From: Cloacibacillus porcorum
GTDB lineage: Bacteria > Synergistota > Synergistia > Synergistales > Synergistaceae
Length of the DNA stretch: 64,000 bases
Assembly: GCF_001701045.1 (NCBI RefSeq)
Contig: NZ_CP016757.1
Coordinates: forward strand, 885,501 to 949,500
Reading direction: 5' to 3'
In this document: piece by piece, positions 7,725-42,787 of the stretch
Layout: the number at the start of each line of letters is the position of its first letter
Position numbering within the stretch: the first letter of the stretch is position 1
Program-made: the position numbers and the translations under genes
The notes under the pieces: generated by a model
Database searches by the model: none
What the model was told of the DNA's origin: nothing
Seen by the model: only the letters and a program-made list of their open reading frames with translations

Positions 7725-7985
7725 CCCTTCCGTCTTTTCTGTTCCGAAACGGACAGAAGAGACGAAAGGGGAAGGCTTCCGCGGTACCACTCTTCATTCA
7801 TTCTAAAAGAATGCTCTTATACGGGATACTGACATATCCCTGCCGCTGTATCGGGCGGACCCGTCCGCGCTTACTGAAAAACTTCTGCGCAGCCGCTCCG
7901 TGACGAGTTCGGCAATATACTCTTCGGCTGCCTTGCACCAACCGGCACCTCTCTGAATCGGTATGATTGCTTACTGCTTCACATC
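7725..7985 (-). promoter_or_regulatory. T-box riboswitch leader
   Basis: On the minus strand the antiterminator core AGAGTGGTACCGCGG lies at 7793-7779. It is followed by a terminator stem at 7770-7725 that ends in eight T (7724-7717). Upstream is a Stem I-like region with CAGAGAGG and GGTTGGTGCAAGG (about 7956-7929) and GAA-CTC-GTC-AC-GGAG (7910-7896). By alignment with known T-boxes the specifier would be CTC (7907-7905), that is leucine. The T-box core is directly visible; the specifier assignment is less sure. Uncharged tRNA would stabilise the antiterminator and switch on the permease gene. Confidence 0.85.
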
Positions 7986-8010
7986 ATTGCGTTATTCTTA
8001 TTGACAAGCA

Positions 8011-41692: not shown

Positions 41693-42469
41693 TTAGAAGG
41701 CGGGAATGACACCCTTGGCCGACAGCTTCTCGTTGATGAACTTCTTCACCTCCGGTGAATTCAGCGCCTTCGCGAGCGCCTTTATCTTAGCGCTGTCCTT
41801 GTCGCCGCTGCGGCAGGCGAGCACGACGGCGTAGGGGGAGTCCTTCGACTCAAGCGCGAGGGCGTCTTTCGAGGGGTTGAGCCCCGCGTCGACGGCGAAG
41901 TTCATGTTGATGACGGAGATTGTCGTGTCGGGAAGTGTGCGCGGCAGCTGCGGCGCTTCAAGCTCCCTTATCTTAAGCTTCTTGGGGTTTTCAACGATGT
42001 CGGCGGCGGTCAGCTTGTTGCCGGGCTTCATCTTGAGCAGCCCTTCGCGCTCAAGCAGCTTGTAGGCGCGGAAGCCGTTTGTCGGGTCGTTGGGAACGGC
42101 GACTACCGACTTTTCTTTAACGTCTTTCAGCGACGTTATTTTTTGCGAGTAGATGCCGATGGGGAGCAGGTGGACCTTTACGAGCGGCACGATGTCAAGC
42201 TTTTTTTCGCTCTTCATGTTCTCAAGATAGGGGATGTGCTGGAAGAAATTGGCGTCGAGGCTCTTGTCCTCCAATGCGAAGTTCGGCTGCACGAAGTCGG
42301 TGAATTCTTTGATATCCAGTTTGTAGCCCTGTTTTGCCAGCACCTCTTTGGCGACGTCCGCGATCTCTTTCGCGGGGAAGGGGGTGACTCCGAGGACGAT
42401 CTTTTCCGCCGCGAAGGCGGATGACGAGAGTACGAGCAATGCTATGGCCGCAAGAATTATTTTTTTCAC
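41693..42469 (-). CDS. metQ: MetQ/NlpA-family methionine-binding protein
   Basis: A 258-residue substrate-binding protein of the methionine ABC family: signal peptide (residues 1-20), then VTPFPAKEIADVAKEVL, DANFFQHIPYLENM, VAVPNDPTNGFRAYKLLEREGL and LPDTTISVINMNFAVDAGL. The usual lipobox Cys is absent (SSSAFAAEK), so it is probably a free periplasmic protein. No metN or metI lies next to it. It follows a Met-rich leader peptide and terminator that would link expression to methionine supply. Confidence 0.9.
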   Translation of the reverse strand: MKKIILAAIALLVLSSSAFAAEKIVLGVTPFPAKEIADVAKEVLAKQGYKLDIKEFTDFVQPNFALEDKSLDANFFQHIPYLENMKSEKKLDIVPLVKVHLLPIGIYSQKITSLKDVKEKSVVAVPNDPTNGFRAYKLLEREGLLKMKPGNKLTAADIVENPKKLKIRELEAPQLPRTLPDTTISVINMNFAVDAGLNPSKDALALESKDSPYAVVLACRSGDKDSAKIKALAKALNSPEVKKFINEKLSAKGVIPAF

Positions 42470-42571
42470 AGTGATACCTCCAGTAGTTTTATATATTCAT
42501 AATTAAAAATTGCCTGCTGTCTTTTGACCAGTCTCTTATCTCCTCTCCCGTAAATTTTTCAAAAGACATAA

Positions 42572-42606
42572 AAAAGACCGGACCCGCAGCGGCGGACCCG
42601 GTCCTG
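42572..42606 (-). terminator. attenuator terminator of metQ
   Basis: On the minus strand GACCGGGTCCGC and GCGGGTCCGGTC form a 12-bp stem (two G-U pairs) with a four-base loop, followed by six T. It sits between the leader peptide and metQ. The 3' arm sequence GCGGGTCC also occurs inside the leader ORF, allowing an alternative pairing. Confidence 0.85.
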
Positions 42607-42624
42607 TAATGACAACGCGCGTAC

Positions 42625-42708
42625 TTAAGCGCCGGTCAGTTCAGGAGAGGACCCGCAGTGAGCGCACATCATCATGTACATTATCGAAATATGGCTTGCT
42701 GAATACAC
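42625..42708 (-). CDS. methionine-rich leader peptide of metQ
   Basis: A 27-codon ORF starting GTG at 42708, six bases after a strong AAGGAGG site. Its codons 10-15 read ATG TAC ATG ATG ATG TGC: four Met in five codons, then Cys. Codons 18-20 (TGC GGG TCC) contain the bases that can pair with the 5' arm of the terminator. A ribosome stalled for lack of Met-tRNA would leave this segment free to form an antiterminator; fast translation would cover it and allow termination. The peptide itself probably has no function. Confidence 0.8.
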   Translation of the reverse strand: MYSASHISIMYMMMCAHCGSSPELTGA

Positions 42709-42759
42709 GGCGTTTCCTCCTTCCCTCCAAAATAGGCGCTGAAAAATCATTGGTGAGAT

Positions 42760-42787
42760 TTTATACTCATCAGCCGAATAATGTCAA
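42760..42787 (-). promoter_or_regulatory. promoter of the metQ leader
   Basis: TTGACA (42787-42782), a 16-base spacer and TATAAA (42765-42760) on the minus strand, about 50 bases upstream of the leader ORF. Confidence 0.75.

Follow-up and report, generated by a model that had tools for sequence, protein, structure and literature searches.

A real, conserved methionine attenuator precedes metQ in Cloacibacillus porcorum, and as far as the open-access literature shows, the regulon to which it belongs is the first of this type with good support. Very likely, one and the same device, a methionine-responsive, ribosome-mediated transcription attenuator, stands at metQ, metNIQ and metYX, where the decoy leader and its terminator probably let the cell turn on methionine uptake and synthesis only at methionine shortage. 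The controls usually described for methionine genes are SAM riboswitches, T-boxes or repressors, not leader-peptide attenuation, which is itself an old, classical mechanism class, and methionine attenuators seem to have been hardly described, with one proposed Streptomyces case found in the open-access literature.

Architecture of the leader before metQ

The window, that is, the whole 64,000-nt stretch of DNA analysed, comes from a genome consisting of a single contig of 3.585 Mb. The leader and the gene behind it comprise the following features:

42758..42787 (-), sigma-70-type promoter TTGACA-18-TAAAAT, 11/12 consensus matches
42709..42728 (-), leader ribosome-binding site (RBS) GGAGGGAAGGAGGAAACGCC, also region 1, which can pair with region 2
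42625..42708 (-), leader ORF MYSASHISIMYMMMCAHCGSSPELTGA, GTG start at 42708, 27 codons, stop codon TAA at 42627-42625
42664..42681 (-), regulatory codons ATG TAC ATG ATG ATG TGC, codons 10-15
42642..42656 (-), region 2, GCGGGTCC-TC-TCCTG, partner of region 1 or region 3
42592..42606 (-), region 3, CAGGA-CC-GGGTCCGC, the terminator 5' arm plus one preceding base, partner of region 2 or region 4
42570..42605 (-), intrinsic terminator (regions 3:4) with a 14-pair stem, 4-nt loop and T-run, fold -21.3 kcal/mol
41693..42469 (-), metQ-family gene (NlpA/MetQ substrate-binding protein), PF03180 E=1e-86

An earlier, sequence-only reading had proposed a methionine-attenuation leader at this place. The promoter and strong ribosome site that it described were both recovered (TTGACA-18-TAAAAT and GGAGGGAAGGAGG, respectively), the latter being a double and strong RBS, and boxes of the form TTGACA..TATAAAAT, resembling the window promoter, lie upstream of most orthologous leaders. 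The 27-codon ORF with ATG TAC ATG ATG ATG TGC as codons 10-15 was likewise borne out, with its start codon corrected to GTG. A terminator with a T-run does stand before metQ, with a stem of 14 pairs and not 12 as first counted; nine of these pairs are G-C and two are internal G-U pairs. The terminator starts ~20 bases 3' of the leader stop codon, and metQ follows ~100 nt beyond it. As had been pointed out, GCGGGTCC is present twice, once within leader codons 18-20 and again in the 3' arm of the terminator. The alternative pairing with the terminator 5' arm also holds, not over 8 bp but as a bipartite 13-bp helix in which GCGGGTCC..TCCTG pairs with CAGGA..GGGTCCGC. The duplex energies in the metQ leader are -19.8 kcal/mol for 1:2 and -19.9 kcal/mol for 2:3. 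The third helix, between the leader RBS and region 2, completes the classical 1:2/2:3/3:4 layout. The sequence-only reading had missed this helix, as well as the regulon and the way in which it relates to the SAM riboswitches of sister lineages.

The Pfam match (PF03180, E=1e-86) placed the downstream gene in the metQ family, and the best NCBIfam models were MetQ as well, with scores under their curated cut-offs. The encoded protein (41693-42469) has a signal-peptide-like N-terminus in which the lipobox cysteine is absent. The gene has no adjacent metN or metI and thus encodes an orphan binding protein; a second MetQ, 58% identical to the window MetQ, is encoded elsewhere, in metNIQ.

Sister leaders in the same genome and in relatives

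A density of at least four Met in six codons was found in one of the 163 RBS-preceded small ORFs in the window, namely the metQ leader only, and in none of 7074 small ORFs from 30 block-shuffled windows. The motif GGAG-N22..52-ATGATGATGTGC was present in 32 of 101 genomes (C. porcorum and relatives), compared with 0/101 for the reversed control pattern. A looser pattern, GGAG..ATGATG, gave 477 matches in the C. porcorum genome, too many to be useful, and was discarded. ATGATGATGTGC occurs at eight sites in this genome, three of which are leaders (metQ, metNIQ and metYX); at the other five sites, a leader-like context was absent.

The metNIQ leader of C. porcorum encodes MRSSTGYFANNMMMCMYTQGSSCDLPDA and the metY leader MRNFSYMQMCMMMCDSGRATLRQ, each followed by a terminator, and metX lies directly downstream of metY. 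The order of parts is identical in the three leaders, while the terminators, alternative pairings and sequences differ. This recurrence of the same design before metNIQ and metYX supports the amino-acid attenuation logic that the sequence-only reading had put forward for metQ. For metH in C. porcorum, no leader of its own was found.

Using one extraction procedure, we assembled a main set of 47 leaders from C. porcorum and its relatives (20 metQ, 16 metNIQ and 11 metY), in all of which the presence of a terminator was a selection criterion of the extraction. Two metY loci failed the extraction criteria and were left out: in L153 the ATG run and the apparent start are in different reading frames, and L154 encodes a shorter Met-containing peptide. 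Ten further leaders, mostly from other families, were found beyond the 47. The Met cluster is present in 47/47 leaders, and the leader ORF is conserved in the 20 metQ leaders, with indels that are multiples of three in an alignment of 14 sequences. A comparison of orthologous leaders, which had been suggested as a check, revealed that the Met run is kept and the alternative pairing is re-formed with different sequences. The leader is missing at metN or metY in some relatives, and in another family a Met leader also stands upstream of metX. Every candidate target of leader control that could be assigned to a family serves methionine uptake or synthesis.

Alternative pairings are conserved by compensation

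As two pairing registers are mixed in the metQ alignment, an alignment-free swap test was used, in which the pairing energies of cognate regions were compared with those of regions swapped between leaders. For the 47 leaders, with kinship ignored, the cognate 2:3 helices had a mean of -19.4 kcal/mol, compared to -14.5 kcal/mol for all swaps (0/2000 permutations as good) and -16.8 kcal/mol for swaps within gene families (0/2000). In the metQ set alone, 10/2000 permutations were as good, again ignoring kinship. The cognate 1:2 helices averaged -18.8 kcal/mol in the 47 leaders, compared to -16.0 kcal/mol when swapped (0/2000) and -17.4 kcal/mol for within-family swaps (0/2000), likewise with kinship ignored. 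Ten later leaders, outside the test set-up, gave -18.8 for cognate and -15.5 for swapped pairs with kinship ignored, and most of them were, taken singly, not above their own shuffles at 5%.

Column covariation of 2:3 was equalled in 0/500 shuffles for metN and 6/500 for metY, and that of 1:2 in 0/500 for metY. The column-shuffle test was not significant in the metQ set alone, including the mixed 20-sequence alignment, because there is little base variation in the main group and the two registers are mixed in the larger set; nor was 1:2 significant in metN alone, where this helix is nearly invariant. Over the leaders as a whole, the antiterminator 2:3, which cannot coexist with the terminator, is kept through compensatory changes.

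Geometry and model folding

Ribosome footprint sizes from general knowledge were used to interpret the spacing of the parts. Counted from the first base of the last Met codon, the antiterminator in the 47 leaders starts at a median of +13 nt (IQR 11-16); a ribosome awaiting Met-tRNA would therefore halt just short of region 2. The antiterminator ends at a median of 15 nt (IQR 12-15.5) before the stop codon, a distance that would put the trailing edge of a ribosome at this codon level with the 3' end of region 2.

When the upstream RNA was masked as by a stalled ribosome, model folding formed 2:3 in 47/47 leaders before region 4 exists, and for the full unmasked leader 3:4 formed in 44/47. In these models, a ribosome stalled at the regulatory codons would free region 2. 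At equilibrium, 3:4 was still the stabler helix in most full-length masked (stalled) models, and in most unmasked leaders 2:3 was predicted to form ahead of region 4 synthesis. Equilibrium folding alone does not choose the state, and therefore switching has to depend on kinetics, which is also the case in classical attenuators.

Alternative explanations

In 43/47 leaders, a TGC (Cys) codon comes immediately after a Met run (in the window at 42666-42664), and Cys makes up 6.5% of the leader residues in this set. The leader may therefore sense sulphur amino acids generally, stalling the ribosome at the Met run or at the following Cys, so that cysteine shortage would open the operons as well; the available part of a report on Streptomyces lividans (PMC8079986) describes a proposed metNIQ leader that likewise mixes Met and Cys (CMCRRMCAF). 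However, Arg replaces Cys after the last Met in six metQ leaders (L004, L005, L006, L008, L010 and L012), the Met cluster being retained in all. A stall at Cys would moreover cover the first bases of the antiterminator, whereas its start at +13 nt fits a stall at Met, and the common TGC could stem from shared descent of the three leaders. We consider general sulphur sensing unlikely, with a minor chance of being right. That the nascent peptide is an arrest peptide which, while in the exit tunnel, senses free methionine or SAM, instead of codons sensing charged tRNA, appears quite improbable. The metQ leaders have the tail G-S-S-P..GA in common, and metN leaders share part of it, but its codons coincide with region 2, so that RNA pairing accounts for their conservation. 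The metY tails differ (GRATLRQ, GSFLMR) yet re-form the same pairing, and the N-terminal halves of the leaders are poorly conserved.

The strength of the terminator would also suit an ordinary constitutive terminator, or a processed 5' UTR, where a Met-rich ORF is present by coincidence. This is very hard to reconcile with a Met run, RBS, geometry and co-varying pairings that are kept at three operons and across families, or with a Met density that none of the 7074 shuffled small ORFs reached, and we give it a very low probability. A SAM riboswitch or T-box concealed within the metQ leader would have a parallel in the SAM-I elements at the corresponding position before metY or metQ in sister lineages. 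Yet no relevant Rfam match was obtained at the leader, either at the gathering threshold or at E<=1, and the same scan does detect a T-box elsewhere in the window (7755-7996), which makes a concealed element almost inconceivable; for the known SAM riboswitch and T-box families, the Rfam scans together with the SAM-I-free genome refute their presence at the leader. A sub-threshold match to L10_leader away from the leader (Rfam E<=1, 6 kb around the leader) was judged to be due to chance.

Proposed mechanism

Ribosome-mediated attenuation sensing charged Met-tRNA is the best reading of these data, and we infer that translation of the leader, stalling, termination and readthrough take place in the cell. 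Transcription would begin at the promoter, and a ribosome would load onto the leader ORF. When Met-tRNA is charged, the ribosome would reach the stop codon, where its trailing edge would touch the 3' end of region 2; after the ribosome has moved on, region 2 could also fold back on the leader RBS (1:2), region 3 would pair with region 4, and RNA polymerase would terminate before metQ. When charged Met-tRNA is scarce, the ribosome would stall in the ATG run and keep regions 1 and 2 apart. Its front edge would lie at the start of region 2, leaving this region free to form 2:3 before region 4 is made, upon which transcription would read on into metQ. With the same device presumably acting at metNIQ and metYX, uptake and homocysteine synthesis would rise together on methionine shortage.

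SAM-I riboswitches at the same genes in relatives

Infernal searches detected no SAM-I riboswitch (RF00162) in the whole C. porcorum genome or in that of its congener, and detected SAM-I in 27 of the 61 genomes searched. It lies directly upstream of metY in G003, G006, G023, G032, G044, G045, G053, G054 and G060, and the sister-lineage metY loci L161, L163, L165 and L167-L172 carry SAM-I in the position of the Met leader. Upstream of metQ homologs, it was found in G041, G048 and G056. In three genomes from another family of the order, G048 (L219), G056 (L050) and G095 (L218), a complete SAM-I riboswitch, including a terminator of its own, stands immediately before a Met leader with a second terminator, after which comes metQ; the Met leader of the G056 tandem encodes MRLSDSNMMMCDMMCCLCGAPDGEYGG.

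The tandem looks like a two-input gate and an evolutionary intermediate. We lean towards the wider view that an attenuation regulon comprises the methionine genes of Synergistota, with the Met-codon leader in the place of SAM-I, and that the stacked arrangement in G048, G056 and G095 is an RNA gate made of an aptamer and a stalling leader, which would turn metQ on only if SAM and charged Met-tRNA are both low. With SAM-I kept at the same genes in sister lineages and both elements present in some genomes, it becomes traceable how one RNA sensor took over from the other, and SAM sensing becomes separable from the sensing of charged Met-tRNA.

Relation to known systems

The Synergistota leaders share with the trp, his, leu, thr, ilv and phe leaders of Proteobacteria a peptide rich in the regulating amino acid, the mutually exclusive helices 1:2/2:3/3:4, an intrinsic terminator and cognate targets. 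They differ from these classical attenuators in their Met codons, in occurring in Synergistota, in a region 1 that is the leader's own RBS, and in a region 2 that is part of the leader's coding sequence, its end being a median of 15 nt short of the stop codon. With SAM-I (S-box, RF00162) before metY and metQ homologs in Synergistota and Bacillota, they have in common the targets and the transcription-termination output; SAM-I differs in that its aptamer senses SAM, and it is absent from the C. porcorum genome.

The available part of the S. lividans TK24 report proposes a leader, metL, upstream of metNIQ (PMC8079986), which resembles the present leaders as a Met-containing peptide (MSTTSDRTPATEATTTPGARCMCRRMCAF) before a methionine importer operon. 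As described there, metL differs in its leaderless transcript, its scattered Met and Cys codons and the lack of a typical intrinsic terminator; this part of the report describes no alternative pairing, and the sequence given has no evident similarity to the Synergistota leaders (PMC8079986). Histidine leader peptides of Firmicutes, as far as the accessible text of the two sources goes (PMC9413887, PMC2965389), are similar in representing attenuation outside Proteobacteria, where T-boxes are usual, but they concern histidine, another phylum and unrelated sequences. A survey of Actinobacteria reported that methionine operons there are not preceded by conserved RNA structures (PMC1262725), and the accessible portion of a survey of premature terminators makes no mention of a methionine leader peptide (PMC2965389). 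No report of a methionine attenuator in Synergistota was found in the open-access literature, and priority is thus uncertain. In Synergistota, a Met-codon attenuator that is complete and conserved appears to govern both uptake and synthesis.

Further observations

A T-box leader (RF00230, 118 bits) lies at 7996-7755 (-) in the window, upstream of a 465-aa ORF (7797-6400) resembling a membrane protein, which had no Pfam match as called.

In one relative, a Met-run leader with a terminator (L217, G091:C26) precedes a gene for a 420-aa protein (910-2169) that had no Pfam or NCBIfam match, and this protein is possibly the product of an unrecognised methionine-related gene. The leaders make it possible to predict regulon members, among them this uncharacterised protein, in a phylum that has received little study.
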